Source: Sphingobacteriaceae bacterium (GTDB lineage Bacteria; Bacteroidota; Bacteroidia; B-17B0; Aurantibacillaceae). From it: a DNA stretch of 64,000 bases. Within the stretch, counting starts at the first letter, position 1. Each line of letters opens with the position of its first letter. Both the position numbers and the translations under genes were made by a program. The notes beneath the pieces were generated by a model. The model was not told the origin of the DNA and ran no database searches. It saw only the letters and a program-made list of their open reading frames with translations. The DNA lies in NCBI GenBank assembly GCA_023251725.1, contig JAHEYG010000002.1, positions 17,578 through 81,577 of the forward strand, given 5' to 3'. Positions 1 through 55,221 of the stretch are shown here, piece after piece.

Positions 1-1
1 A

Positions 2-358
2 AAAAAGGCGGCTACTGATTCAATCAAAAATCAGGAAGAAATCAGAGTGCAGGATGCGAAACTAATTGCACAGGAAGCAAAATTAAAACAAGAGAAAACA
101 CAGTTCTGGTTTCTGGTTACAGGTTTCGGGTTTCTGGTTGCAGGTTTAATTTTCGTAATCAACCGTTTCCGACTTACTCAAAAACAGAAAAAAATAATTG
201 AAGAACAAAAAATTATTGTGGATGATGCTTTTGAGAAGTTACACGAAAAAAATAAAGAAGTACTGGATTCGATACAATATGCAAAAAGAATTCAAACGGC
301 TTTGATTACTAATGAGAAATATATTGAGAGGAAGTTGAATTTGTTGAATGAAAATTAA
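2..358 (+). CDS. C-terminal fragment of TPR/TM/coiled-coil protein (truncated by window start)
   Basis: Frame open from base 2 (KKAATDSIKNQEEIRVQDAKL...); near-identical to the C-termini of the three following paralogs; ends KYIERKLNLLNEN*. Confidence 0.85.
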   Translation, partial: KKAATDSIKNQEEIRVQDAKLIAQEAKLKQEKTQFWFLVTGFGFLVAGLIFVINRFRLTQKQKKIIEEQKIIVDDAFEKLHEKNKEVLDSIQYAKRIQTALITNEKYIERKLNLLNEN

Positions 359-371
359 GTTGTTAGAGAAT

Positions 372-420
372 TTTGGCAGTAGCTGTTGGCAGTTGGCTGT
401 AGCAGTTGGCAGTTGTAGGA
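372..420. repeat. Degenerate GGCAGT(A/T)G tandem repeat upstream of TPR gene 1
   Basis: ggcagtagctgttggcagttggctgtagcagttggcagttgtagg read directly. Confidence 0.85.
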
Positions 421-450
421 TTTAGAAAAAATTAATTATGATTCGAAAAT

Positions 451-2106
451 TTGAAGATGTTTATTAAATATTTATTTGTTGCCGACTGCCGCCGCCTACT
501 GCTTACTGCCTACTGCTTACTGCTACTGCCTACTTTTTCATTTTCCCAGAATAAAATAATTGATTCCTTAAAACTCGCTGTTAAAAACGCAAAGCACGAT
601 ACAACTCGATGTAATATTTTATCGCAGCTCGCCGAAACGTCTTCTGATGAAGAGTGGCCGAAGTTTAATGAGAATTTAAAAACTCTTGCCGAAACCAATC
701 TAAAAACCTGCATAGCTTCACACCCGCTTCATATAATCTTTTTAAAACACTTGGCATCTGCTTTTAACAATGTTGGATATCTCGCAGAACAAAATGGCGA
801 TATTCCAAAAGCTTTAAATTATTACAACCAAAGCATGAAAATTCAGGAAGAGATTGGAGATAAATCCGGTATCGCTACTTCTCTTAACAACATCGGGTTT
901 GTTTATCAGAACCGTGGCGACATTAAAAACAGTTTAAATTATTATGAACGTAGTTTAAAAATTAGTGAAGATATTGGCGATAAAATTCATGTCGCCTTTT
1001 CGCTAGTCAACATTGGGCTAGTATATCAAAACTATGGTGACATCCAAAAGGCTTTAAATAGGTATCAACGCGGAATGAAAATTAGTGAAGATATTGGGAA
1101 TAAAAAAGGGATGGCAACTTCGCTTCACAACATTGGAAGTATTTATAAAAATCAAGGCGATATTCAAATGGCTCTAAATTACGACGAAAGAAGTCTGAAA
1201 ATTAGAGAAGATATTGGAGATAAATCTGATATAGCTAATTCGCTCAACTCAATCGGCATTATATATAGGGAGAATGGCGACATTCAAAAAGCATTAAATT
1301 ACTGTGAACGTAGTTTGAAAATTTGGGAAGAAATTGGGCATAAAGATGGTATCGCAACCGCACTAAACAGCCTGGGATATATTTTTGAGAATCAAGGCGA
1401 CAATAATATAGCTTTAAGTTATTATGAACGCAGTTTGAAAATAAGGGAAGAAATTGATGAGAAAGAAGGCATTGCTTTTTCGCTTAACAACATCGGGGCT
1501 ATTTATTTAAAGCTCAAAAACTATAATAAAGCTTTAGAATTTTCAAAAAAGTCTTTGAATGTCAGCAAAGAAATACGATATCCTCAAAACATTAGGAATG
1601 CAGCAAAGCAGTTAAGCAATATTTACAAAGAAATGGGTAATCACGAACTAGCTTTAGAAAACTACGAGCTTTTTATTTTAATGCGAGACAGCATCAGTAA
1701 TACAGAAACAAAAAAAGCAAGTATTAAATCTCAACTTAAATACGAGTACGAAAAAAAGGCCGCTACCGACTCCATAAAAAATCAGGAAGAAATAAGAGTG
1801 CAGGATGCAAAACTAATTGCGCAGGAAGCAAAATTAAAACAAGAAAAAACACAATTCTGGTTTCTTATTACGGGTTTCGCGTTTCTGGTTTCGGGTTTTA
1901 TATTTGTCATTAATCGTTTTCGTGTAACTCAAAAGCAGAAAAAAATTATTGAAGAGCAAAAAATAAAAGTGGATGAAGCTTTTGAAAAACTGAACGAAAA
2001 AAATAAAGAAGTAATGGATTCGATAACGTATGCAAAAAGAATTCAAACGGCTTTAATTACGAGTGAGAAATATATTGAGAGGAAATTGAATCAGTTGAAT
2101 GGTTAA
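451..2106 (+). CDS. Tetratricopeptide repeat protein, signal peptide + 40-residue TPRs + TM + coiled coil; start is TTG 451 or ATG 457
   Basis: Repeated NNIGxxYxxxGDIxKALNYYxRSLKIxEEIGDK units; FWFLITGFAFLVSGFIFVINRF TM; ends at DSITYAKRIQTALITSEKYIERKLN. Confidence 0.9.
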   Translation: MKMFIKYLFVADCRRLLLTAYCLLLLPTFSFSQNKIIDSLKLAVKNAKHDTTRCNILSQLAETSSDEEWPKFNENLKTLAETNLKTCIASHPLHIIFLKHLASAFNNVGYLAEQNGDIPKALNYYNQSMKIQEEIGDKSGIATSLNNIGFVYQNRGDIKNSLNYYERSLKISEDIGDKIHVAFSLVNIGLVYQNYGDIQKALNRYQRGMKISEDIGNKKGMATSLHNIGSIYKNQGDIQMALNYDERSLKIREDIGDKSDIANSLNSIGIIYRENGDIQKALNYCERSLKIWEEIGHKDGIATALNSLGYIFENQGDNNIALSYYERSLKIREEIDEKEGIAFSLNNIGAIYLKLKNYNKALEFSKKSLNVSKEIRYPQNIRNAAKQLSNIYKEMGNHELALENYELFILMRDSISNTETKKASIKSQLKYEYEKKAATDSIKNQEEIRVQDAKLIAQEAKLKQEKTQFWFLITGFAFLVSGFIFVINRFRVTQKQKKIIEEQKIKVDEAFEKLNEKNKEVMDSITYAKRIQTALITSEKYIERKLNQLNG

Positions 2107-2165
2107 ATGGTTGAATGGTTAAGTGGTTAAATGGTTAAGTGGTTAAATGGTTAAATGGCTAAATG
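2097..2165. repeat. 8-nt tandem repeat (GGTTAAAT) spanning the stop codon of TPR gene 1
   Basis: ggttaaat ggttgaat ggttaagt ggttaaat ggttaagt ggttaaat ggttaaat. Confidence 0.9.
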
Positions 2166-3851
2166 ATTAAATTGATAAAAATAAATACATACTCTTTTAC
2201 TGCCAACTGCCTCTGCCAACTGCTTACTGTCTGCATACTGCTACTGCCTACTTTTTATTTTTCCCAAAACAAAAGCATTGATTCATTAAAACTGGAGCTT
2301 AAAAAACTTCCAGCCGGAAGCGCCGAGGCTGTCGCGAAGTATGATACCTTACACTGCAATATTTTATCTTATTTAACGGAAATAGTTTCAAATGAAGAAT
2401 TGCCAAAGTTTAATGATGAATTAAAAAATATCGCTGAAAAAAATAGCATCCTGTATCCACTTTCGCATCCTTTGCATAAGGTGTTTTTAATTCATCTCTC
2501 AACCTCATATAATAATAAAGGAATTCTGGCAAAGTGGGAAGGAAATTTTGAAATAGCTTTAGAATTTTTCCTTAAAAGTTTGAAGATATCTGAAGAATTA
2601 ATGTATAAAAAAGGCTTGGTTGGTAGCCTGATCAATATTGGAGAATTGTATCTTGATAAGGGCAATGCCCTTAAATCATTAGAATATTATGATAAAGCAC
2701 TCAAAATTGAAATTGAGGCCGGCTATGTTAGCAGGCTTGCGGATATATTTAACGGAATGGCAATTTTACAGGGCAACCTAGGTAATTTTGAGAAATCATT
2801 AGAGTATTTAATAAAAGGATTGAAAATTTCTGAAGAAGCGGGGAATAAACCTGGAATTGCAAATTCGCTAAGGTTCATAAGCACTATTTATAAAATACAG
2901 GGCGAATTGAAAGCCTCTTTAGAATACCTTAATAAAAGCCTGAAAATATCGGAAGAATTAAATGATAAAAGCGCCATTTCAAGTTGCTTTCACAATATCG
3001 GAGACCTATATTTTTTTCAAGGCGATTTTGGGAAAGCGCTTGAATACAATATGAAAGCTTATAAAATAAGAGAAGCTATAGGAGATAAAACAGGTATTTC
3101 AATTACTCTTAATAATTTAGGAAGTATTTATAAAAAACTTGGAGATTTAAAAAAAGCATTAGAATTTTATAACAAAAGTTTACTAATCCACCTAGAAGTT
3201 GGCTATAAAAAAGGAATCACTTATTCCTATAATAATATTGGAAGCATTTATTTAGCACAAAAAGATTATAACAAGGCCTTAAAATACACATTAAAATCGT
3301 TGTTAATTAGTAAGGAAATAGGTTTTCCCGAAAGTATTCGAAACGCGGCTATCCAGTTAAATACGGTTTACAAAATAAGGGGAGATTATAAAAACGCATT
3401 AGCCAATTATGAACTTTATATTTTAATGCGCGATAGTATTTCCAACGAAGTCACAAAAAAAGCCGCTATAAAATCCCAACTAAAATACGAATACGAAAAA
3501 AAGGCGGCTACCGACTCCATAAAAAATCAGGAAGAAATTAGAGTGCAGGATGCCAAATTAATTGCGCAGGATGCGAAATTGAAACAAGAGAAAACACAAT
3601 TCTGGTTTCTTATTTCGGGTTTCGGGTTTCTGGTTTCGGGTTTTATATTTGTGGTTAATCGTTTCAGACTTACTCAGAAGCAGAAAAAAATAATTGAAGA
3701 ACAAAAAATTATTGTGGATGATGCTTTCGAGAAACTGCACGAAAAAAATAAAGAAGTAATGGATTCGATACAATATGCAAAAAGAATTCAAACGGCTTTA
3801 ATTACGAGTGAGAAATATATTGAGAGGAAATTGAATGCTTTGATAAGTTGA
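2163..3851 (+). CDS. Tetratricopeptide repeat protein, paralog 2
   Basis: TPR units, TM FWFLISGFGFLVSGFIFVVNRF, same C-terminal helix as neighbours. Confidence 0.9.
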   Translation: MIKLIKINTYSFTANCLCQLLTVCILLLPTFYFSQNKSIDSLKLELKKLPAGSAEAVAKYDTLHCNILSYLTEIVSNEELPKFNDELKNIAEKNSILYPLSHPLHKVFLIHLSTSYNNKGILAKWEGNFEIALEFFLKSLKISEELMYKKGLVGSLINIGELYLDKGNALKSLEYYDKALKIEIEAGYVSRLADIFNGMAILQGNLGNFEKSLEYLIKGLKISEEAGNKPGIANSLRFISTIYKIQGELKASLEYLNKSLKISEELNDKSAISSCFHNIGDLYFFQGDFGKALEYNMKAYKIREAIGDKTGISITLNNLGSIYKKLGDLKKALEFYNKSLLIHLEVGYKKGITYSYNNIGSIYLAQKDYNKALKYTLKSLLISKEIGFPESIRNAAIQLNTVYKIRGDYKNALANYELYILMRDSISNEVTKKAAIKSQLKYEYEKKAATDSIKNQEEIRVQDAKLIAQDAKLKQEKTQFWFLISGFGFLVSGFIFVVNRFRLTQKQKKIIEEQKIIVDDAFEKLHEKNKEVMDSIQYAKRIQTALITSEKYIERKLNALIS

Positions 3852-3855
3852 TAAA

Positions 3856-3928
3856 GAACAGTTGGCAGAAGCAGGAAGCAGTTGGCAGTAGCAGGAAGCA
3901 GTTGGCAGTAGCAGGGAACAGTTGGCAA
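3856..3928. repeat. GCAGTTGGCAGTAGCAGGAA tandem repeat upstream of TPR gene 3
   Basis: agcaggaagcagttggcagt unit repeated. Confidence 0.9.
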
Positions 3929-3930
3929 TT

Positions 3931-3984
3931 TTAGGATTTAGGATTTAGGATTTAGGATTTAGGATTTAGGATTTAGGATTTAGG
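3931..3984. repeat. Perfect 7-nt tandem repeat (AGGATTT), about 7.7 copies
   Basis: taggatttaggatttaggattt... Confidence 0.95.
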
Positions 3985-4022
3985 AAAAAATTAAATCCTT
4001 TAATAAATAATGATTTGAAAAT

Positions 4023-5681
4023 TTGAAGGTGTTTATTAAATATTTATTTGTTGCCGATTGCAGCCGCCTACTGCATATTGCCTACTGCCTACTGCTACTG
4101 CCTACTTTTTTATTTTCTCAAGATAGAACCATCGATTCCTTAAAACTCGCTCTTAAAAATGCTAAACACGATACCACCCGTTGCACTATTTTAAACGCGA
4201 TGATAGAAGCGGAAGGCGATGATGCAGTTTGGCCAATTTACAACGATGAATTGAAAAAACTTTCTGAAAAAAATAACCAATCAAAAGAAATATCTCAATC
4301 CTTACATAAATTCTATTTAAAATATCTGGCATCTTCATTAAACAACATCGGCTTTCTCGCCGTACAGAAAAGCGATTTAAAAAAAGCTTTAGAATATTAT
4401 GATAAAAGTTTAAAAATACAGGAAGATATTGGAGATAAACTTGGAATCTCCACCAGCCTTAACAACATTGGGCTTGTTTACAATAAACAAGGCGACATAT
4501 TTAAATCATTAGAGTTTTATAATAAAAGTTTGAAAATATACGAGGAGATTGGTGATAAACAAGGAACCGCTATTTCCCTTAATAACATCGCACTTATTTA
4601 TTACAGTCGCGGCGACATACCCAAAGCTTTAGAATGTCATGCCAAAAGTCTTAAAATACGCGAAGCAATTGGTGATAAGAAAGGTATTGCGGGTTCGCTG
4701 AACAACATCGGATTTATTTATCAAAAACAAAACGAATTAGTAAAAGCGCTCGAATACTACAACAAAAGTTTGAAAATACAGGAAGGGGTAGGTGATAAAA
4801 ACGGAATGGCTTATTTACTTAACAATATTGGAGGTATTTATTATCTCATTGGAGATACAATTAAAACTTTAGAGTATTACCGAAAAAGTTTGAAGATTAA
4901 AGAAATGATTGGTGATAAAAATGGGATCGCCAATACACTTAACAACATCGGACTTATTTATTTCAACAGGGGCAACCTTGTAATTGCCTTGGAATATTAT
5001 CGAGAAAGCCTGAAGATTAAAGAAATTATCGGAGATAAAAAAGGCATTACTTATTCATTAAACAATATTGGAAGTGTTTTTTTTATGCAGAAAAATTACG
5101 ATAAGGCCTTAGAGTATACATTAAAAGCTTTAGCTCTTAGCAAAAGCCTTGGTTTTCCCGAAAACATAGAAGATGCGGCTTTTTATCTTAACAAGATATA
5201 CAAAATAAAAAAAGACTACAAAAACGCTTTGCAAAATTATGAGCTATACGTTTTAATGCGAGATAGCATTGCCAATGAAGCCACAAAAAAAGCCAGCATC
5301 AAATCTCAACTCAAATACGAATACGAAAAAAAGGCTGCCACTGATTCTATTAAAAATCAGGAAGAAATAAGAGTGCAGGATGCAAAACTAATTGCGCAGG
5401 AAGCAAAATTGAAACAGGAGAAAACTCAGTTTTGGTTTCTGGTTACCGGTTTCGGGTTTCTAGTTCTGGGTTTTATTTTTGTGGTTAATCGTTTTCGAGT
5501 AACTCAAAAACAGAAAAAAATAATTGAAGAACAAAAAATAATTGTGGACGATGCTTTTGAAAAGTTACATGAGAAAAACAAGGAAGTAATGGATTCGATT
5601 CGTTACGCGCAAAAGATTCAGACGGCTTTGATTACGAGTGAAAAATATATTGAGAGGAAATTGAATGAGTTGAATGGTTAG
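4023..5681 (+). CDS. Tetratricopeptide repeat protein, paralog 3 (TTG or GTG start)
   Basis: TPR units, TM FWFLVTGFGFLVLGFIFVVNRF, same C-terminal helix. Confidence 0.9.
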   Translation: MKVFIKYLFVADCSRLLHIAYCLLLLPTFLFSQDRTIDSLKLALKNAKHDTTRCTILNAMIEAEGDDAVWPIYNDELKKLSEKNNQSKEISQSLHKFYLKYLASSLNNIGFLAVQKSDLKKALEYYDKSLKIQEDIGDKLGISTSLNNIGLVYNKQGDIFKSLEFYNKSLKIYEEIGDKQGTAISLNNIALIYYSRGDIPKALECHAKSLKIREAIGDKKGIAGSLNNIGFIYQKQNELVKALEYYNKSLKIQEGVGDKNGMAYLLNNIGGIYYLIGDTIKTLEYYRKSLKIKEMIGDKNGIANTLNNIGLIYFNRGNLVIALEYYRESLKIKEIIGDKKGITYSLNNIGSVFFMQKNYDKALEYTLKALALSKSLGFPENIEDAAFYLNKIYKIKKDYKNALQNYELYVLMRDSIANEATKKASIKSQLKYEYEKKAATDSIKNQEEIRVQDAKLIAQEAKLKQEKTQFWFLVTGFGFLVLGFIFVVNRFRVTQKQKKIIEEQKIIVDDAFEKLHEKNKEVMDSIRYAQKIQTALITSEKYIERKLNELNG

Positions 5682-5706
5682 ATGGTTAGATGGTTAGATG
5701 GTTGGA
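5672..5706. repeat. 8-nt tandem repeat (GGTTAGAT) spanning the stop codon of TPR gene 3
   Basis: aatggttagatggttagatggttagatggttgg. Confidence 0.9.
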
Positions 5707-34477: not shown

Positions 34478-34627
34478 TTTTATTATCTTTGTTCCACTTC
34501 CCCGTATTTTTTCATTTTATTATTAATTAAAGTGTTTTCTATAATAAATATACACTTCGATAAAATAAATTGACGAATTGTTCTTAAATAATTTATTTTA
34601 TTAATTTTACAAAAAAAAAATTAAAAC

Positions 34628-36742
34628 ATGAAAAAACATTTATTACTTGGAACCGCACTTTTAGTAGCTATAAGCGCCTTTCCGCAAAACAACAAACAAT
34701 CAATTCCTACTGGTGTGGTTAAACAGCAATTCAGAAAAAACATTATTGCTGAAAAAGAAGTTCAAAACACTTTACCAACAACAGTTTCTCCAATTAATAA
34801 AATTAAACCTTTTTCAAAAAGTAATCTCAATGCCAAGGTGGCGGCTATTACAGTTACGCGTTTATCAGGCTCAATAAATGCGTTTGGCGTTTTAACAGAC
34901 GAATCCAATTCACTTTGTTATAGTCCGGGTCCAAATATTGTATCCTTTATACATCGCAAAAGTAGTACCTACACCCCTGCAGCCAATGGAAATTCAGGTA
35001 CCATGGTAGCCATGCTTTCAACTAATATCGGTACTACATGGGATTCAACTTGTTTGTGGACAAGTGCCGCTAGCTTCGCACGTTATCCTCAGGGGGGGAT
35101 TTATAATCCCATCGGAAACACAACTTATACAAACGCTACTGTTGTAGGAATGGGACCTTTTCATAATGGAGGCCCTTGGGCAGGTAACTGGTATGCGAGT
35201 AAAAAAATTACTTTACCGGGCACTAATGCCTCCGGAACGGATTGTCAGGCTATTGATAATGCAGCTTTACCACCGGGAGTTAATGTGCATCACCTTTCTA
35301 GTAACGCTTTCAGCTCAATTGACGGTGGTTATGTTAGATCAATGTCATTAATTTGTAACGACGATGCTGGAGCTACCAATGTAGCATTTGGCCCGAGAGG
35401 TGCAATGATGACAAAAGGTTTATATACTGCAGGATCGTTTTCTTGGACTACTGACTCTTTTGCCCCTCCAACAACATTAAGAACAGATGGATCGAAACAA
35501 ATTAATATTAACGCTCCTTTAACTGCATGGAACGAAGCGGGAACCATCGGATATGTTGTAATGTATGGCAGCCGACTTGGTGCACCAACAGCTCAAAAAG
35601 GTTATCAGCCCATAGTTTATAAAACTACTAACAGCGGCGCCAGTTGGGTATTATTGCCTAATAATGATTTTACCACACCTGCGTTTAAAGGATTGAAGGA
35701 TCGTATTAAAGGAATTAACACTAACAGCAATGTAGTTATCCCAATGTTTACAACGCTTGAGGGTTACGATGCCGCAGTAGACGTTAATGGTAATTTACAT
35801 ATAGTTACCACTGTTCTTGGCACCTCTAGTGCAGACGTAGATTCTTTAGATTATAATTACCAGTTTACAGTTGGAGGAGAAATCTATAATTACGATTTTG
35901 CAAAATATTATGGTAAACCAACTATTTATGATTTTTATACTTTGAGTGGTGGTGGATGGAATTATTTTATTGTGGATACTATGGGAAGTGTTGGTCCTTC
36001 AGGTAATGCCGGCCAACCCGGAGTTGCAGCAAATCCTTGGGCAGCCGCAGCTCAATTATCAATTGATGCACGAATTCAAATCAGCAGAACTGCTGACGGT
36101 AAAAAAATATATTATAGCTGGACCAGTACAGATCCGGCAGTTGCAGGTAATAATTGGAATATTTTTCCAAATATTCGGGTTAAAGGATTTGATGTTCTTA
36201 CAGATAAAGTAACACCTACTTATTCAGTTACTGATGGCAGTGTTACAACTCCTCTGGGTTTATATGGGGTGGATGGTTCAGCTTTTTTTCATTATATGTG
36301 TGATAAAGCTGTTGGTTCAGGTACCGCATGTGTTGATATGTTATTTACTTCAACTAATAATGCTGCTGCTGACGGTAACGTTGATGTTGATCATTATTTT
36401 ATTAAAGGGCAATCTATTTGCGCAACTGCTTTTACACTTACACCTTGGAGACCACTTGGAGTTACAGAAGTTGCTAATTCTGAAACCTCAACAGAAGTTA
36501 ATATTTATCCTAATCCTGCCAGCGAGGCAGCAACAATATCGGTTGGTTTAAAAGATGTGAAAGATTTCGAAATAAGTCTTTATAATTCGATTGGGCAACA
36601 AGTGATTACTACAATGAAAATTAACGGTAAGCCGGGAGTTAATGATGTATTTGTTGATTTAAGCAAATTAAATTCGGGATTATATTTTTATTCTGTAAAA
36701 ACAGATAATTCAGTAGTTACAAAAAAATTAATTATCGAATAA
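34628..36742 (+). CDS. T9SS type A cargo protein, paralog 1 (Asp-box-like beta-propeller)
   Basis: YKTTNSGASWVLLP Asp-box-like motif; CTD EVNIYPNPASEAATISVGLKDVKDF...KKLIIE. Confidence 0.88.
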   Translation: MKKHLLLGTALLVAISAFPQNNKQSIPTGVVKQQFRKNIIAEKEVQNTLPTTVSPINKIKPFSKSNLNAKVAAITVTRLSGSINAFGVLTDESNSLCYSPGPNIVSFIHRKSSTYTPAANGNSGTMVAMLSTNIGTTWDSTCLWTSAASFARYPQGGIYNPIGNTTYTNATVVGMGPFHNGGPWAGNWYASKKITLPGTNASGTDCQAIDNAALPPGVNVHHLSSNAFSSIDGGYVRSMSLICNDDAGATNVAFGPRGAMMTKGLYTAGSFSWTTDSFAPPTTLRTDGSKQININAPLTAWNEAGTIGYVVMYGSRLGAPTAQKGYQPIVYKTTNSGASWVLLPNNDFTTPAFKGLKDRIKGINTNSNVVIPMFTTLEGYDAAVDVNGNLHIVTTVLGTSSADVDSLDYNYQFTVGGEIYNYDFAKYYGKPTIYDFYTLSGGGWNYFIVDTMGSVGPSGNAGQPGVAANPWAAAAQLSIDARIQISRTADGKKIYYSWTSTDPAVAGNNWNIFPNIRVKGFDVLTDKVTPTYSVTDGSVTTPLGLYGVDGSAFFHYMCDKAVGSGTACVDMLFTSTNNAAADGNVDVDHYFIKGQSICATAFTLTPWRPLGVTEVANSETSTEVNIYPNPASEAATISVGLKDVKDFEISLYNSIGQQVITTMKINGKPGVNDVFVDLSKLNSGLYFYSVKTDNSVVTKKLIIE

Positions 36743-36761
36743 AAATCTTTTAATAATGTAT

Positions 36762-36800
36762 AAAAAGTCCCGCCTCGAAAAAAAGCGGGACTTTTTGCTT
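36762..36800 (+). terminator. Rho-independent terminator after paralog 1
   Basis: aaaaagtcccgc/gcgggacttttt. Confidence 0.9.
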
Positions 36801-36999
36801 TTAAAAAAAATTTGGAAGATTGCTTTTTTTTTACTAGCTTTGATTTATCATTCCCGTGATAGTTACTTAGATGTTATCCCCTCCATCTTATTTAATTGTT
36901 AAAACCCCAATTTTGTTAAAATGTTTTTGTTACTATATGTGATTTTTTACTACTTTTATGTGCTTAATTAAAAAAATAACAATTAAACCAAATAATAAA

Positions 37000-39111
37000 A
37001 TGAATAAACATCTACTCCTAGGATCAGCGCTTTTAGTAGCTATCAGCGCGTATCCGCAAGCCGGCAAACAGGTAAAGCCTACCGGAATTATTAATGAACA
37101 AGCCAGGAAATACTCAGATTTTGAGAAAGAAGTACAAAATAGTACTACTATTTCAACAACAGCGCCTGTTAAACACGCTTCAAAAGCTAATCCAAATGCG
37201 AAAGCAAATGCTAATACTTGTATGCGTTTTACAGGTTCAATGAACGTTTTTGGTTTATTGATTTCTGAAGCAAATTCGCTTTGTTATAGTAAAGGACCAA
37301 ACATTGTATCTTTTGCTCACCGCAAAAGCCCTACTTATACTCCTGCGGCAAATGGCAATTCGGGCTCACAAGTGACTATGCTTTCTAGTAACGCTAATAG
37401 CGTAACCACTACTTGGGATTCGACCTGTACTTGGACTAATGCTACCGATTTAGCACGTTATCCTCAGGGTGGAGTTTATAATCCGCTTGGTAATACAACT
37501 TATACCAACGCCTACGTTGTAAGTATGGGGCCTATTACCAATGGTACAAACTGGACAGGTAACTGGTATTGTAGTAAAAAAATTACCTTGCCGGGTACCA
37601 ATGCTTCAGGTGTTGATCAGCAATCAATGAACAACGCCGCTTTACCTGCAGGAGTTAAAGTTCACCATTTTTCTCGTTACTCTTTTTCTTCTATCGATGG
37701 TAGTTATGTTAGATCAATGTCTACTGTATTAAACGACCCTGCCGGTGCAACAAACGTGGCTTATGGTCCTCGTGGAGCAATGATGACTAAAGGTTTATTT
37801 ACAGCCGGAACATTTAGCTGGACAACTGATTCCTTTATTCCTCCTGTTATTGCAAGAGGTGATGGTTCAAAACAAATTAATGCTAATTCGCCATTATGTG
37901 TTTGGAGTCCTACCCCATCAATTGGATATGTAGTTATGAATGGTTGCCGCTCGGGTGCCCCAACTGCTCAAAAAGGATATCAGCCTATTGTTTATAAAAC
38001 TACTACCGGCGGTGCCAGTTGGGTTTTATTACCAAGCAACGATTTTACAACACCTAATTTTAAGGGTTTAACAGATCGTATTTATGGAATTAATACTAAT
38101 AGTAATATACTTATCCCTCAATTTTCACAATCTGAAGGTTATGATGCTGCTGTTGACGTTAATGGAAATTTACATATTGCAATCACTGTTGTTGGTTCTT
38201 CTAGTCAAAATAACGACTCATTAGAATATGCTTTCCAGTTTGCGATCGGTGGTGAGAATTACGGTTTCGATTACTCTCCATTATATGGCAAACCAATAGT
38301 TTATGACTTTTTTACAATGTCTGGCGGTGGTTGGGATTACTTTCTAGTTGATTCAATGGCAGGTGAAGGTCCTTCAGGAACAACCGGACAACCCGGCTTT
38401 GCAGCTAATCCTTGGTCTAATCCGGGAGCGGTTGGAATTGACTCACGTATTCAAATGAGCCGTACTGATGATGGAAAAAAATTATATTACAGTTGGACTT
38501 CTTCTGACCCGGCAATTGCAGGTAACAATTGGAACATTTATCCGAATATCCGTGTTAAAGGTTTGGATGTTGTTATGAATAAAGTAACTCCTACTTATTC
38601 TGTTACTGATGGTCTTTTGTGTCCTGGGTTTACAGGTGTTGACGGATTAGCTTATTGGCATTATATGAGTGATAGAGCTATTGGTTCAAGTACAGCTTGT
38701 GTTGATATGCCATTTACTGCATCAAATAATGCTACTAATAACGGTAATATTGCAGTTGACCATTATTATATTAAAGGTCAACAAATTTGTGCTGCAGCAT
38801 TTACTTTAACTCCATGGAAACCGTTAGGTGTTGCTTCAATCAGCAATACTACTCCTTCTACGGATGTTAATATTTATCCTAATCCTGCGAGCCAAGCGGC
38901 AACAATTTCGGTTGGTTTAAAAGATGTTAAAGATTTTGAAATAAGTCTTTATAATTCTATCGGACAACAAGTTCTTTCAACCGTAAAAATTAATGGTAAA
39001 CCAGGACTTAATGATGTATTTGTTGATTTAAGTAAATTAAATTCAGGTGTGTATTTTTACTCGGTTAAAACTGATAACTCAGTGGTAACTAAAAAATTAA
39101 TTATTGAATAA
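37000..39111 (+). CDS. T9SS type A cargo protein, paralog 2
   Basis: Homologous throughout to flanking paralogs; start chosen at ATG 37000 (MNKHLLLGSALLVAISAYPQ) instead of 36958. Confidence 0.88.
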   Translation: MNKHLLLGSALLVAISAYPQAGKQVKPTGIINEQARKYSDFEKEVQNSTTISTTAPVKHASKANPNAKANANTCMRFTGSMNVFGLLISEANSLCYSKGPNIVSFAHRKSPTYTPAANGNSGSQVTMLSSNANSVTTTWDSTCTWTNATDLARYPQGGVYNPLGNTTYTNAYVVSMGPITNGTNWTGNWYCSKKITLPGTNASGVDQQSMNNAALPAGVKVHHFSRYSFSSIDGSYVRSMSTVLNDPAGATNVAYGPRGAMMTKGLFTAGTFSWTTDSFIPPVIARGDGSKQINANSPLCVWSPTPSIGYVVMNGCRSGAPTAQKGYQPIVYKTTTGGASWVLLPSNDFTTPNFKGLTDRIYGINTNSNILIPQFSQSEGYDAAVDVNGNLHIAITVVGSSSQNNDSLEYAFQFAIGGENYGFDYSPLYGKPIVYDFFTMSGGGWDYFLVDSMAGEGPSGTTGQPGFAANPWSNPGAVGIDSRIQMSRTDDGKKLYYSWTSSDPAIAGNNWNIYPNIRVKGLDVVMNKVTPTYSVTDGLLCPGFTGVDGLAYWHYMSDRAIGSSTACVDMPFTASNNATNNGNIAVDHYYIKGQQICAAAFTLTPWKPLGVASISNTTPSTDVNIYPNPASQAATISVGLKDVKDFEISLYNSIGQQVLSTVKINGKPGLNDVFVDLSKLNSGVYFYSVKTDNSVVTKKLIIE

Positions 39112-39131
39112 TTAATTTCTAAATTAAACTT

Positions 39132-39166
39132 AAACGTCCCACCCTAAAAAAGTGGGACGTTTTGTT
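39132..39166 (+). terminator. Rho-independent terminator after paralog 2
   Basis: aaacgtcccac/gtgggacgttt. Confidence 0.9.
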
Positions 39167-39314
39167 TAAAAAATTTAATGTTTAAAAAAATGTTTCTTAT
39201 TAGGCCTTAAAATATTCCGGTTTTTATCTTACAATTATTTTTTGTTTCTACACATTTAAATTGTATTTTTATATTAAATTAATAATTATTAAAAAACTTA
39301 AACCATAAAAAAAA

Positions 39315-41408
39315 ATGAATAAACTTCTACTCTTAGGGTCTGCGTTTATAGTAACTATAGGCGCCTATTCACAAAACGGAAAACAAACCAAACCTTCCGG
39401 TTTTATTAATAAACAAATTGAAAGAGAAATTGCGATTGAAAAGGAAGTACAAAACAATCCCCTTTCAATAACCATCGCTCGTTCTAAAAAAAATACAATT
39501 AAATCTAATGCAAAAACAACAGCCATTACTTGTATGCGTTTTACAGGATCAATGAATGCAATTGGTTTATTAGTTTCTGCTGCCAATTCGCTTTGTTATA
39601 ATCCCGGGCCAAACATTATTTCGTTTGCACACCGTAAAAGTCCTACTTACACACCTGCTGCAAACGGTAACTCCGGTTCACAAGTATTTATGCTTTCGAA
39701 TAACCTCGGTGCCACTTGGGATTCAACTTGTCATTGGGCAAATGCAACCGATTGGGCACGTTATCCGCAAGGTGGCGTGTACAATCCTGCAGGAAATACA
39801 ACTTATACTAACGCTTATGTTGTAGGTATGGGGCCTTATACACAAACAGCCGGTGGTTGGTTTGGTAACTGGTACGCCAGTAAAAAAATTACTTCACCGG
39901 GTAATAACACACCGGGTACCGATCAGCAATCGATGTTAAACACAAGTTTACCGGGTGGCGTAAAAGTTCATCATTTTTCACGGTATGCTTTTTCTTCTAT
40001 TGATGGCGGTTATGTTAGATCAATGGCCGGATTACTTAATGATCCTGCCGGTGGAGCAGCTTATGGTGCACGCGGTGGCATGATGGCAAAAGGTTTATTT
40101 ACTGCAGGAAGTTTTACATGGACCACAGATTCTTTTGCACCTCCGGTATCAGTTACTACTGCCGGTGTAAAAAATGTTCAAGCTACTCCTTTACAAGCCT
40201 GGGATGCAAACGGTGTTACCGGTTATGTTATTCTTTACGGTTGCAGAGCAGGTGTTCCTACTTCTCAAAAAGGATATCAACCTATAGTTTATAAAACTAC
40301 TAATAGCGGAGCCAGCTGGGCATTGTTGCCTAGTCAAGATTTTACGGGCCCTTCGTTTAGAGGTTTAACAGATAGAATCTATCCAACGGCCAGCAATACT
40401 AATGTAATTGTTCCTCAATTTTCGAATGGAGAAGGATGGGATGCAACTGTTGATGTTAACGGTAATCTTCATATTGTTACAACTGTTGTTGGAAGTTATA
40501 GCAGCGATACCGATTCTTTAGGTTATGCTTTTCAGTTTGCTATTGGCGGAGAAAATTATAGTTACGATTACGCTACTTATGGTTATCCAACTATTTATGA
40601 TTTTTATACAATGTCGGGTGGTGGATGGAATTATATGATTGTTGATTCTATGTTGAGTGAAGGACCTTCCGGAGCATCTGGACAACCCGGTTACGCTGCT
40701 AATCCATGGACAAGTGGTACAGCAAAACTTTATTTAGATGCGCGAATTCAAATTAGCCGTACAGCAGATGCTAAAAAAATATATTATAGCTGGACTGCTT
40801 CTGAACCTTCGGTTGCCGGTAATAACTGGAACGTTTTTCCTAATATTCGCGTTAGAGGTTATGATGTGCTTATTGATAAAGTAACTCCAACCTATTCTGT
40901 AACCGACGGAAGTACTTGTCCGGGCTTTACCGGAGTTGACGGGTTGGCTTTTTGGCATTACATGTGCGACAGAGCTATTGGCTCGAGCACTGCTTGTGTT
41001 GATATGCCATTTACAGCCTCTAATAATGTTACAAATAATGGTGATATTCCAGTTGATCATTATTATTTAAAAGGACAAACCATTTGTGCAAATGCTTTCA
41101 CCATAACACCATTCAGACCAACTGGAGTTACAGCAATTAGTAATACTTCGCCTTCAACCGAAGTTAATATTTATCCTAACCCAGCCAGCCATGCCGCTAC
41201 CATTTCGGTTGGTTTAAAAGATGCTAAAGATTTTGATATAAGTCTTTATAATTCTATCGGGCAACAAGTTATTGCCACCATCAAAATTAATGGTAAGCCT
41301 GGACTTAATGATGTATTTGTGGATTTAAGCAAATTAAATTCGGGTATGTATTTTTACTTGGTTAAAACTGATAACTCAGTGGTAACTAAAAAATTAATTA
41401 TTGAATAA
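39315..41408 (+). CDS. T9SS type A cargo protein, paralog 3
   Basis: Homologous to paralogs 1 and 2; same CTD. Confidence 0.88.
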   Translation: MNKLLLLGSAFIVTIGAYSQNGKQTKPSGFINKQIEREIAIEKEVQNNPLSITIARSKKNTIKSNAKTTAITCMRFTGSMNAIGLLVSAANSLCYNPGPNIISFAHRKSPTYTPAANGNSGSQVFMLSNNLGATWDSTCHWANATDWARYPQGGVYNPAGNTTYTNAYVVGMGPYTQTAGGWFGNWYASKKITSPGNNTPGTDQQSMLNTSLPGGVKVHHFSRYAFSSIDGGYVRSMAGLLNDPAGGAAYGARGGMMAKGLFTAGSFTWTTDSFAPPVSVTTAGVKNVQATPLQAWDANGVTGYVILYGCRAGVPTSQKGYQPIVYKTTNSGASWALLPSQDFTGPSFRGLTDRIYPTASNTNVIVPQFSNGEGWDATVDVNGNLHIVTTVVGSYSSDTDSLGYAFQFAIGGENYSYDYATYGYPTIYDFYTMSGGGWNYMIVDSMLSEGPSGASGQPGYAANPWTSGTAKLYLDARIQISRTADAKKIYYSWTASEPSVAGNNWNVFPNIRVRGYDVLIDKVTPTYSVTDGSTCPGFTGVDGLAFWHYMCDRAIGSSTACVDMPFTASNNVTNNGDIPVDHYYLKGQTICANAFTITPFRPTGVTAISNTSPSTEVNIYPNPASHAATISVGLKDAKDFDISLYNSIGQQVIATIKINGKPGLNDVFVDLSKLNSGMYFYLVKTDNSVVTKKLIIE

Positions 41409-41426
41409 TTAATTTTAAACAATAAA

Positions 41427-41463
41427 AAAAACCCGTTACGAGTAATTGTAACGGGTTTTTTGT
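41427..41463 (+). terminator. Rho-independent terminator after paralog 3
   Basis: aaaaaacccgttac/gtaacgggtttttt. Confidence 0.92.
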
Positions 41464-50896: not shown

Positions 50897-53710
50897 TTAT
50901 TCCAGAATAATTTTTGAACTTGTGGTTCCTTCCTCATTAAATAATTTTAAAAAATAAATTCCTCTGCTCCAATTAGAAGAATTGATGATGGTAGAACCAC
51001 TCAGCTTATTTTCGTAAACCAACTTTCCGGTAGCATCGTAAATAAAAATTTGGTTACTTAATTTATTATTGATATTAATGTGAAGCTGATTAGTGGCAGG
51101 ATTGGGAAATACCAAAACTTTATTATTGGCCAAACTTATTTGTTTAACTCCCACCGTTGAAGCTACCGTATTGTATTTTATTTGCGCGTTAACGGCACTC
51201 AATTGCAAATCGGCTAAATCATCACCCCCAATTAAAGCATAGGCGGTTACAATAGTCTGCCCTGGCGCCAGTGTAAACGGACCGTTACTCATCACATTAC
51301 ACACATCATTACCCATACCTGCACCGCCGGCGTTGAACCTGTTATTTTTTAAAGTTTTATATTTTAAAATGGTGCTGTATCCTGCGGCTAAACTTATATC
51401 GTAACCTCCTCCGCCACCCGCCAAATTATCAATGGCGTAAAATGATGGAGTACTGTAATGCGTTAATAATTTTATTCCGGCATATTTGCCACCCGCATCC
51501 GTACACCAGCTGTATCCCATTGAATCGGGTGCAGAATAAGCCGATTTATTATTGGCATAATTATTTATATCCCAATCCGCAAAAATTCCCACACGTAAAC
51601 CTGTTAAACTAACTGTATTGGTATTTGTAATTTCGTATTCCCAAATAACATATTTTCTGTTGGGCGCCGTGTTCCATGCATAATTACGCTGAACAACATC
51701 CACTCCAATTATTGTAGTTGACACCGCATCGTCAAATTCAGTGTAGGTATCAAAATCACTTTTTGGGGCCACTAAAACTTTATTAATAGCATTTTGTATT
51801 CCAAAATCTGCATCATTAGTAGCACCCACTGCACGTATCACATCCGAAACCTTAGTGGTATCTGTACCAATCATTAAACCGCCATCATACAAAATACTGT
51901 TTCCATTGTAAACAAATCCTAATCCCTGAATCTGTCCATCCTGATTATAGCCAATTTTTCCTTTACTGGTAGAAGTGGTTAAAATATCGTTGATGGTAAT
52001 ATTAATATAATCGGCATTTACATAAATGGTAAAAAATTGTGAAGCTGTGTAACTTCCGTCTTTAAAATCTAATCTGAAATCAATTGGAGCATTAGAAGCA
52101 AACACACCGCTTAATTTAAATGCAAAAGGTGTAGCTGTATTGGTTTTAGTTCCCAACATATTTATTACTCCCAAATTAATGGTATTGGAAACAATTTGTG
52201 CTTGTGCCGATAAAGCCACCATCGTTGCGTTTAACGCAGAAGTTGGCGCCAGATAATTAGTAAATAACCCTCCGATAAAAATGGTATCGCCCGCCACAAA
52301 AATTCCATCGTTATGATCAACAATATTAAGGTTACTATAAACAATTGCAGGGGAAACAGGATCGGTTAGTGCACGAAATAAATTTATTCTTCCGGTTCCT
52401 AATTTATTTGGCACCGTTGCATTGGCCGCAATTCCATAAATATTATCAGCGGTTTGTTTTAATCTTTCTCCCACTTGCAAAGCCGAGTACGCAGGATAAA
52501 AACTTCTTACAATGGCCGCCGCTCCCGCAACAACAGGAGAGGCCATTGAAGTTCCTGTTTGTAAACTATACCCTGTTCCAGTCCAGGTCGAATTAATATT
52601 TGTTCCGGGCGCGCACACATCAATAAAATATCCATAATTAGAAGTAAAATTTCTGGCATCAGTATTTAATGTGTTCGCTACTGCTGTTACATATTGGTAC
52701 GCCGCCGGAAAAAATTCCTGATCCAAACCATTGTTACCGGCCGCACAAACTACTAAAACATCTTTGTTAATTGTGGCGTAGGTACAAATATCCTGACCAT
52801 ACTGTCCGCCACCAATGCCACCCCACGAACAATTAATTACTTTGCAACCATGGTCGGCAGCGTATTTAATTCCTTCATAAGCCGCCACTAAACTTCCGGC
52901 AGCGTCAGCAATTTTAACCGGTAAAAATTTACATTTAAAACCAATTCCGGCGCCGCCAATATTATTATCGGTACTTGCTGCAGCAATACCGCAAACATGA
53001 ATTCCGTGCGGACCTTGACCTGCAGCCGGAGGCCATGTTGGATCATTATCGTTGCTTCCTAAATCCCAACCGCTAAAATTATCAATGTAACCGTCACCGT
53101 CATTATCTGCTAAATCAATCGGGTCGGCATAATTATGTTTTATGTTTCCTTGTAAATCGGGGTGGGTGGGCTCCGTTCCAGTATCGGTAATTCCAATTAT
53201 TGTATTAGAATCGCCCTTACTGATATTCCAGCCGTTATAAGCATCAATTCTTCCAATGTGATATTGCGACAAGGGTGTTGACATAGGATCATTAGGAGAA
53301 TAACAGGTTTTAGGAATGAAATGCGGTTCTGCATAAACTAAAACTCCCGTTGAAAGTAAAAGGTTTATGTTTTTTTCTATTGGAGAATTGGCTGAAAATT
53401 TAATTTCATAAATTAAAGATAAATCGGCGTAAGCATATCCATCCTTATTAAATTTTTGATTAGGCGCCAATTCATATTTAAACTTTTTTGCTATTGAAAC
53501 AGATCCTAAGCTGTTTAATTTATTTTGCAAATTGGATATATTGATTCCTGTTTCATTGCAAAACGAACGGTAATTGTCTTTCACTTTAAAAATAATAGTG
53601 TTGCTTATATAATCGGAAGGGCTTATTCCTTTCGGTAATTTATAAGACGATTGTGCATTGGCCGAAAAACAAAATGCAATAATTAAACTAAGAAAATAAA
53701 AATTTTTCAT
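50897..53710 (-). CDS. Subtilisin-like (S8) serine protease with T9SS type A CTD
   Basis: IIGITDTGTEPTHPDL (Asp), GPHGIHVCGIAAA (His), GTSMASPVVAGAAAI (Ser); CTD VLVFPNPATNQLHININ...GIYFLKLFNEEGTTSSKIILE. Confidence 0.93.
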   Translation of the reverse strand: MKNFYFLSLIIAFCFSANAQSSYKLPKGISPSDYISNTIIFKVKDNYRSFCNETGINISNLQNKLNSLGSVSIAKKFKYELAPNQKFNKDGYAYADLSLIYEIKFSANSPIEKNINLLLSTGVLVYAEPHFIPKTCYSPNDPMSTPLSQYHIGRIDAYNGWNISKGDSNTIIGITDTGTEPTHPDLQGNIKHNYADPIDLADNDGDGYIDNFSGWDLGSNDNDPTWPPAAGQGPHGIHVCGIAAASTDNNIGGAGIGFKCKFLPVKIADAAGSLVAAYEGIKYAADHGCKVINCSWGGIGGGQYGQDICTYATINKDVLVVCAAGNNGLDQEFFPAAYQYVTAVANTLNTDARNFTSNYGYFIDVCAPGTNINSTWTGTGYSLQTGTSMASPVVAGAAAIVRSFYPAYSALQVGERLKQTADNIYGIAANATVPNKLGTGRINLFRALTDPVSPAIVYSNLNIVDHNDGIFVAGDTIFIGGLFTNYLAPTSALNATMVALSAQAQIVSNTINLGVINMLGTKTNTATPFAFKLSGVFASNAPIDFRLDFKDGSYTASQFFTIYVNADYINITINDILTTSTSKGKIGYNQDGQIQGLGFVYNGNSILYDGGLMIGTDTTKVSDVIRAVGATNDADFGIQNAINKVLVAPKSDFDTYTEFDDAVSTTIIGVDVVQRNYAWNTAPNRKYVIWEYEITNTNTVSLTGLRVGIFADWDINNYANNKSAYSAPDSMGYSWCTDAGGKYAGIKLLTHYSTPSFYAIDNLAGGGGGYDISLAAGYSTILKYKTLKNNRFNAGGAGMGNDVCNVMSNGPFTLAPGQTIVTAYALIGGDDLADLQLSAVNAQIKYNTVASTVGVKQISLANNKVLVFPNPATNQLHININNKLSNQIFIYDATGKLVYENKLSGSTIINSSNWSRGIYFLKLFNEEGTTSSKIILE

Positions 53711-53732: not shown

Positions 53733-53811
53733 CTTACGGATTAAATTCCTATAAAAAAAATTACCACTTGCATTTGCAGGAAGGTGAGAAGAAAATTTTT
53801 GCCTTTGGCAT
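53733..53811. repeat. Direct repeat copy A (79 bp) flanking the PIN module
   Basis: 72/79 identical, ungapped, to 54561-54639; minus strand encodes MPKAKIFFSPSCKCKW*. Confidence 0.95.
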
Positions 53812-53883
53812 AAATAAAAAACTTAGAGTCCACCCGCAATGCACAACTGCCCCGTGTTACCGGCTTTGCTTTACTGTCTGCAG

Positions 53884-54027
53884 CTAAGCAATTTTTATTT
53901 TTCCGTCCCGAACTTGTTTTAAGAAGTCTTTTTGTTGCTCTAAAGTCATACCAACCATTTTAGCGGCTAATTTTTCTTTAATGGCTCTAAAAAAAGCTAC
54001 GGTGTCGAAAGATTTTTTAGTCTTCAT
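53884..54027 (-). CDS. 47-aa small protein, candidate antitoxin: MKTKKSFDTVAFFRAIKEKLAAKMVGMTLEQQKDFLKQVRDGKIKIA
   Basis: ATG overlaps the 3' end of the PIN gene (aaacATGAAGACTAA); below the length cutoff of the ORF track. Confidence 0.7.
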   Translation of the reverse strand: MKTKKSFDTVAFFRAIKEKLAAKMVGMTLEQQKDFLKQVRDGKIKIA

Positions 54028-54478
54028 GTTTTAAAAATTCTAAAGGTGTCCTAATGTCAATGAGTGGATAACCCAATTTTAAATTTATTGAGTTAAACAA
54101 TTTAATTTTGTCAAAATTTACAATGTGCTTAAAGTTCCAGCTTACTAAACAGTCAAGTCTATTGACTGACGCAAGTGCAATGTGAAAAGCGTCGTTCATA
54201 CTTGATTGTCCTAACGCTTTTTCATTAACATAGGTTTCAGCAAGTTTTTTTGCTTCGGCATTAAGTTCAAGATATTTATAACAGTCTATAGGAATTAATG
54301 ATTTAAGGTCTTGAACGTGCGGAGGAGCTAAGCTTAATTCGGTTTCGTTTACTTCGGAAAAATAAATCTCAAAGTCCTTGTTTTTAATTCGGTCAAAAAG
54401 TTGCCTTGTCACTACTTCAAACTCTTCGTCAAAATAGCCGCCAATTACAGAAGTGTCTATATATATTCGTTGTCTCAT
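54017..54478 (-). CDS. PIN-domain protein (VapC-like ribonuclease, putative toxin)
   Basis: RQRIYIDTSVIGGYFDEE acidic start; SSMNDAFHIALASVNRLDCLVSWNFKHI. Confidence 0.87.
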   Translation of the reverse strand: MRQRIYIDTSVIGGYFDEEFEVVTRQLFDRIKNKDFEIYFSEVNETELSLAPPHVQDLKSLIPIDCYKYLELNAEAKKLAETYVNEKALGQSSMNDAFHIALASVNRLDCLVSWNFKHIVNFDKIKLFNSINLKLGYPLIDIRTPLEFLKHED

Positions 54479-54492
54479 TCGTTAATGTTACT

Positions 54493-54500
54493 CAAATATA
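54493..54500 (-). promoter_or_regulatory. -7 element TATATTTG of the PIN gene, inside the repeat-bounded segment
   Basis: Minus-strand exact TAnnTTTG match 15 nt upstream of the start codon; no clear -33 TTG. Confidence 0.45.
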
Positions 54501-54560
54501 AGAAATTTTTTCATAGGTAAAATGTCATAAAAAAGGCGGGGGACCAAGCATTGCCGATAT

Positions 54561-54639
54561 CTTACGGATTAATTTCTGATAAAAAAAATTACCACTTACA
54601 TTTGCAAGAAGGCGAGAAGAAAATTTTTGCTTTTGGCAT
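54561..54639. repeat. Direct repeat copy B (79 bp), covers the 3' end of the LRR gene
   Basis: Ungapped alignment with 53733-53811. Confidence 0.95.
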
Positions 54640-55221
54640 TAGTTCCTGTAAATGATTTTGCTGCTCATCGCTCAATAAAATATTTCTTAAATCTAATACT
54701 TTTAAAGCTTTTAAATTAATCAGCGTTTCCGGAAAATCTGCTAAATTATTGCTCCACATATCCGCAATTTCTAAACTTGCTAAATTTCCGAATTGCGGCG
54801 GCAAACCCTCTAATTCGTTTTGATTGATGTTGATGTATCTTAAATTTTTTAATAATCCTATTTCTTTGGGAAGGCGCTCGAGTCCGGTTTTATTACAGGT
54901 AAAATATTGCAGTTGTATTAATTCGCCTATGCCTTCCGGAATTTCCTTAATGCTGTTTTTACTCACATCTAAATACTGCAGATTTTTAAATTTAAAAATT
55001 TCGGGCGGGAAAGTTTTTAAATGTTTTCGTTTTAAATTTAATTTAATCACCTTATCGGGATTTTTTAAAGCCGAATCCAAATTAGTAAATGCTTCCATTT
55101 TCCAAATGGTAACCGAATCCAATAATTGTGCATCTAATTGTTTTGAAAAAACAAAAGATAAAAAGCAAATCAAAACTGATCTGCTAAAAACTCTTAAAAT
55201 TATTTTATTAAACTTTTGCAA
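54589..55221 (-). CDS. Secreted leucine-rich-repeat protein
   Basis: Signal peptide; LQYLDVSKNSIKEIPEGIGELIQLQYFTCNKTGLERLPKEIGLLKNLRYI. Confidence 0.85.
   Translation of the reverse strand: MQKFNKIILRVFSRSVLICFLSFVFSKQLDAQLLDSVTIWKMEAFTNLDSALKNPDKVIKLNLKRKHLKTFPPEIFKFKNLQYLDVSKNSIKEIPEGIGELIQLQYFTCNKTGLERLPKEIGLLKNLRYININQNELEGLPPQFGNLASLEIADMWSNNLADFPETLINLKALKVLDLRNILLSDEQQNHLQELMPKAKIFFSPSCKCKW

Follow-up and report, generated by a model that had tools for sequence, protein, structure and literature searches.

A PIN-domain operon between diverged copies of an LRR gene end in a Sphingobacteriaceae bacterium, and its possible insertion by homologous recombination

Integrase-driven islands and prophages that enter the 3' end of a gene and restore it, such as e14 at icd, bring their own version of the gene tail and leave an orphan tail at their other end. 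The locus described here is organised similarly, with its own gene-tail version at one end and an orphan tail at the other. Unlike those elements, it encodes no integrase, comparable loci have different targets, and no attachment core shared among them was recognised by eye. Transposons and insertion sequences make a short target duplication of fixed length, whereas duplications of the type seen here are long and variable, and a search limited to inverted repeats of at least 20 nt found none spanning the cassette edges.

Another precedent is the ‘insertion with long target duplication’ of restriction-modification (RM) units (Nobusato 2000; Furuta 2010), as it is recounted in PMC3874152, PMC3031569 and PMC1643837. 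According to these accounts, RM units can insert unlinked to a known mobile element, with a variable target duplication on the order of 100 bp and an empty allele in a related genome. Our locus likewise combines a presumed addiction-type unit, a long and variable direct duplication and an empty allele in relatives. We liken it to the RM insertions as they are recounted there and do not class it with them: the cargo is a toxin–antitoxin (TA) type operon with a PIN gene, the duplicates can be diverged alleles separated by synonymous changes, and in one case a crossover appears to lie inside the duplication. In E. coli, most of the incoming plasmid DNA that has been cut and trimmed forms circles again and enters the chromosome through one crossover that depends on RecA, with products that carry duplications of 109-950 bp (PMC3240628). 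Such integration predicts an insertion plus duplication of a homologous gene end, as at the present locus, although the experimental system is a laboratory plasmid delivered by conjugation and here a natural TA operon and a gene tail of 30-130 bp are involved. Chromosomal type II TA insertions such as ccdO157, between folA and apaH, are also small islets at intergenic sites that are empty in relatives; a review calls their integration mechanism unelucidated (PMC7167474), whereas the flanks of our locus carry a record of integration.

A PIN operon between two copies of an LRR gene end

The window, by which we mean the whole 64,000-nt stretch of DNA that was analysed, belongs to a genome assembly that is 75% complete. 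The features of the locus, all on the minus strand, are:

50897..53710 (-), S8 subtilase with a type IX sorting domain, the native next gene, which directly follows the LRR gene in same-genus genomes
53733..53811 (-), repeat copy A, orphan tail (3' end) of an LRR allele, encoding MPKAKIFFSPSCKCKW and a stop, with 28 bp more, joined to the region upstream of the S8 protease gene
53810..53865 (-), 5' half of an attC-like imperfect palindrome, a GC-rich patch beside copy A with a 91% match to a repeat on contig C35
53884..54027 (-), 47-aa ORF, candidate antitoxin, overlapping the PIN gene by 11 bp
53885..54500 (-), conserved core, DNA common to other PIN loci, reaching from the promoter-like motif as far as the 47-aa ORF stop
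54017..54478 (-), PIN-domain protein of 153 aa, candidate toxin (Pfam PF01850, 7e-5)
54493..54500 (-), promoter-like motif TATATTTG upstream of the PIN gene, read in the sequence
54561..54639 (-), repeat copy B, end of the intact LRR gene (its final 16 codons and the stop) together with the next 28 bp
54589..55221 (-), LRR-repeat gene (Pfam LRR), the target, located after ribF

The preliminary description had reported 79-bp ungapped repeats of which one is the real LRR gene end and the other an orphan, and alignment confirms this: the copies at 53733-53811 and 54561-54639 are 79 nt long, ungapped, 91% identical and 749 bp apart, and their flank-versus-flank match has an E-value of about 4e-28, far above chance. 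Copy A, to which no gene is attached, encodes the same 16 residues and stop as the LRR gene end, and it ends ~20 bp ahead of the S8 ATG, where genomes with an empty site carry their single LRR 3' end. The GC-rich patches that had been noticed near both inner edges measure 57% (53826-53885) and 71% (54535-54555), against 35% for the window. An Rfam scan of the locus gave no match. Elsewhere in the window, 1-5703 and 34618-41431 contain long direct repeats, about 70-86% identical, that are apparently tandem paralogous genes.

Only two ORFs, the PIN gene and the 47-aa ORF, lie between the repeats, and there is no recombinase. The PIN protein scores 23.8 bits against PF01850, barely above the cut-off of 23.6, and D8, E47, D96 and D109 are conserved in an alignment of its family. 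The 47-aa ORF matches no NCBIfam family and is kept beside PIN genes at other loci at 30-40% identity. The arrangement proposed earlier, of a promoter-like motif, the PIN gene and the overlapping small ORF, holds, with TATATTTG, which we take to be a putative Bacteroidota-type -7 promoter-like motif, in front of the two genes. From its sequence, the two-gene operon looks like a TA pair. It is VapBC-like (type II) in that it includes a PIN-domain toxin candidate, albeit one marginally over the PF01850 cut-off, but the usual vapBC order is reversed, with the candidate antitoxin ORF downstream of the candidate toxin gene. PADLOC returned one marginal match only. When the cassette was compared by blastn with other PIN loci (L054-L063), homology ended at 53885 and at about 54500; the shared DNA spans only the promoter-like motif to the small-ORF stop, so the conserved unit is just the operon. 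We rejected the idea that the PIN gene is carried chiefly by phages or plasmids, as 8 relatives among 2.9 million viral contigs and 5 plasmid records were found, all below 60% identity.

The empty site anticipated by the preliminary description, with the LRR gene directly before the S8 protease gene, is present in all seven same-genus genomes searched. None of the seven has a PIN gene between the two genes or a match to the PIN protein. These genomes have just one LRR gene end in the interval from ribF, in front, to the protease, and the LRR stop and the protease start are about 50-190 bp apart. The result that the preliminary description had named as a refutation, relatives that all lack an empty site, was therefore not obtained.

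Duplicated gene ends recur around toxin operons at unrelated genes

A second PIN operon in the same genome (contig C44; PIN 46% identical) has the end of an HTH gene duplicated on both sides. The two copies, 130 bp long, differ by 6 synonymous changes, 0 non-synonymous changes and 1 indel, and no empty site was found for this HTH/Fic locus. In other genomes, PIN operons are surrounded by duplicated ends of kdsA (G053), ispD (G044) and pheT (G098), and further duplicated ends belong to rnpB (3' end; L094, identified by eye) and probably to aspS (L096). At three loci (L098, L133 and L191) the duplicated part is instead the 5' end of the next gene. Gene names at these loci come from reading translations rather than from family searches. 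An empty site was found for the ispD locus as well. Across the gene-end loci the duplication measures 32-142 bp (79 bp in the window), and the repeats of different loci have no common sequence when compared by eye. Thirteen of the 68 PIN loci in the genome collection that could be tested have tight flanking repeats, whereas of 2345 control placements at other positions in these loci 19 have them (nominal Fisher p 5e-13, with placements that overlap and are non-independent); the 13 include some intergenic repeats rather than gene ends, L058 among them. The repeats of L058, L086, L100, L105 and L118 have an intergenic, cassette-type appearance, and were left out of the gene-end duplications. Core-gene controls had no tight repeats (0 of 28 LRR loci and 0 of 18 ispD loci). 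Under a looser distance limit, 5 of 29 ParE toxin loci have flanking repeats, so the phenomenon is not confined to PIN toxins. Together, the empty sites and the similar cassettes flanked by different duplicated gene ends, here and elsewhere, support the earlier interpretation of the locus as a candidate mobile cassette.

Two assignments were reduced. The orphan of L046 had been read as a full second ispD allele (ESLLT and a stop); this was withdrawn, as the stretch may be native intergenic DNA. The first part of the L051 orphan, read as kdsA, may be attC-like sequence, and only about 30 bp of kdsA are secure. At the same kdsA end (L051 1370-1990, G053), the PIN gene is without its N-terminal half, and the small ORF is nearly identical to that of a genome of another family (G023, L045), which suggests recent transfer. 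The 2.8-Mb genome with the pheT case (G098, source of L102) has eight PIN-family matches; certain of these are flanked by another duplication (L195), and others lie beside attC-like ends (L184). Its relative G121 has the pheT 3' end twice (L216 1-1293 on C73, and L219 on C76): one copy is part of the whole gene and is followed by other genes, and one is an orphan beside native downstream DNA, that is, the same site with different cargo.

Foreign DNA within a duplicated gene tail

In a single case, a close sister genome shows which DNA is native. G005, of the same genus as the window, has a ParE-type operon at the 3' end of an SRPBCC-like gene (so judged by eye), and the sister G007, 95% identical to G005, has the empty site. 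Along the gene copy in G005, 56 bp identical to G007 are followed by a final 31 bp with 8 mismatches. The final 31 bp of the orphan are identical to G007 and continue into native downstream DNA. A gene copy that turns from native to foreign, with an orphan that is native at its end, is what entry of foreign DNA through a crossover within the duplicated tail should produce. The first 47 bp of the orphan have 5 differences from G007, where the gene copy is mostly native; the reading of this 5' part as foreign depends on one lone SNP and on a 6-bp patch at which both copies are unlike G007. Judged against G007, the foreign DNA both starts and stops within one and the same gene tail, which is the prediction of a single crossover. 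Events at pheT in G098 are more complex: past the orphan, identity to sister genomes drops to about 77%, against a background of about 90%, and later rearrangements can blur the pattern.

The preliminary description also considered it probable that the two window copies had both still been coding when they diverged. The four coding differences are indeed all synonymous, with 0 non-synonymous, but for the window alone this conclusion is weak (P = 0.12 if half of the changes fell in a neutral orphan). It holds over the four clearest cases, in which 24 of 27 substitutions are synonymous, against a neutral expectation of 27% (P = 3e-11) and an expectation of about 58% under the half-neutral model just described (P = 6e-4). 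Pooling all eight cases tested leaves no significant surplus of synonymous changes over that half-neutral model (P = 0.51). The older orphans of L096 and L098 are decayed and retain little signal of their origin.

Possible routes of insertion

On a narrow balance, we think it probable that a recombinase-free TA fragment was inserted at the LRR gene end by homologous recombination, perhaps by way of an end-joined circle. The starting material would be a foreign fragment in which the PIN operon adjoins the 3' end of an LRR-gene homologue. Its ends would be joined at a microhomology of a few bases, a broken attC-like repeat to the LRR tail, and the resulting circle would be unable to replicate and would contain the gene tail once. 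The half-site in the window meets copy A at ATGCC(A/G)AAGGCA, which is one change from the full repeats and one change from the LRR gene tail, and the junction resembles an end-joining scar between the two ends of an incoming fragment. One RecA crossover between the tail on the circle and the chromosomal tail would then insert the circle. The LRR gene would stay intact with a tail that is at least partly foreign, the operon would come next, and the orphan tail would abut the gene that had followed LRR before. Toxin addiction would then select for cells in which the operon is kept. We infer that the window insertion took this route. The homology in the clear gene-end cases, 32-130 bp, is short for RecA and counts against this explanation.

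At these loci, the two alleles of one gene tail around a recombinase-free operon are a readable record of insertion. With this record, a route by homologous recombination can be tested from sequence comparison alone, and TA modules are linked to the RM insertions with long target duplication. A broader proposal is that TA operons lacking a recombinase spread from one bacterium to another as tail-plus-operon fragments that circularise and insert by single crossovers at conserved gene ends, in a general, repeatable and self-spreading cycle. This we regard as rather doubtful. If true, pop-out between the two tails would regenerate the circle, such units might still be mobile, and the cycle would explain the entry of chromosomal TA modules.

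A linear foreign fragment may instead have paired with the gene on one side and been joined to the recipient's tail through microhomology on the other (homology-facilitated illegitimate recombination), which would make the orphan wholly native; we allow this a small but appreciable chance. Its product would be nearly the same as that of the circle route, microhomology is present at the window junction (ATGCC.AA.GCA) and at the ispD junction (GTGAC shared), and the 3' part of the G005 orphan is native. However, the 5' part of that orphan is unlike G007 where the gene copy mostly matches it, classical events of this type delete recipient DNA, and, of the 60 products of the E. coli experiment, 56 had duplications that were attributed to circles and only 4 were one-sided (PMC3240628). 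It is also conceivable, if improbable, that the operon was there first and that DNA from an operon-less strain recombined in later, with lethal loss ensuring that the operon was kept and a second, foreign tail was placed downstream. The orphan of G098 and about 230 bp beyond it do seem more foreign than the side with the operon, which G098 has in common with G120, as this order of events would have it, but in G005 and G007 it is the orphan side that is native and the gene tail that is foreign, and the empty site prevails among the relatives that were examined for the window and ispD loci. At odds with the recurrence at many genes is a local duplication of the LRR end, or the remnant of a tandem LRR paralogue, followed by drift, with separate arrival of the PIN operon. 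Taken singly, the window locus is compatible with this, given the P of 0.12 for its four synonymous changes under the mixed model. But TA operons at many unrelated genes show the same combination, and same-genus genomes have a single LRR end between ribF and the protease, which makes it very unlikely.

The preliminary description had offered homologous recombination and a trans-acting recombinase side by side. Homologous recombination fits better, as the targets and repeats differ among loci and in G005 the crossover seems to fall inside the gene end. Site-specific integration by a trans-acting recombinase at attachment sites in gene 3' ends has in its favour that element-borne 3' ends which restore the target are a hallmark of integrase-driven elements. 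Nevertheless, we give it very little probability: the targets range over LRR, HTH, kdsA, ispD, pheT and rnpB, with 5' ends in L098 and L133, repeat sequence and length vary, and the unit contains no recombinase. Insertion of an integron cassette at a chromosomal attG by an integron integrase is the least probable of the routes weighed. Half an attC-like repeat does lie at the 3' side of the cassette, and the genome has an attC-like cassette array, but the site is broken mid-way rather than at the G^TT crossover point, a duplication of about 80 bp is not known from the integrase, and the best TIGR02249 score in this assembly, 75% complete, is 104 bits against a cut-off of 265. A plain integron cassette was likewise rejected as a description of the window locus, since integron cassettes have a complete attC behind the gene and here only the 5' half is present (53810-53865), with no integrase above the cut-off in the incomplete assembly.

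Copies of the attC-like repeat occur on contigs C35, C70, C7, C88 and C18 of the window genome, and a complete copy, when folded, forms a long hairpin (z -3.7). On C35 (L008 4783-4973, 6002-6215 and 6739-6849), palindromes of about 110-215 bp lie between small co-oriented ORFs, like an integron cassette array. Lone 5' half-sites are found on C7, C70 and C18 as well as in the window. Short intergenic tandem repeats with 7-bp units (TTTCTGG; GGTTAAC-like) occur at L008 3637-3706 and L009 2431-2492.
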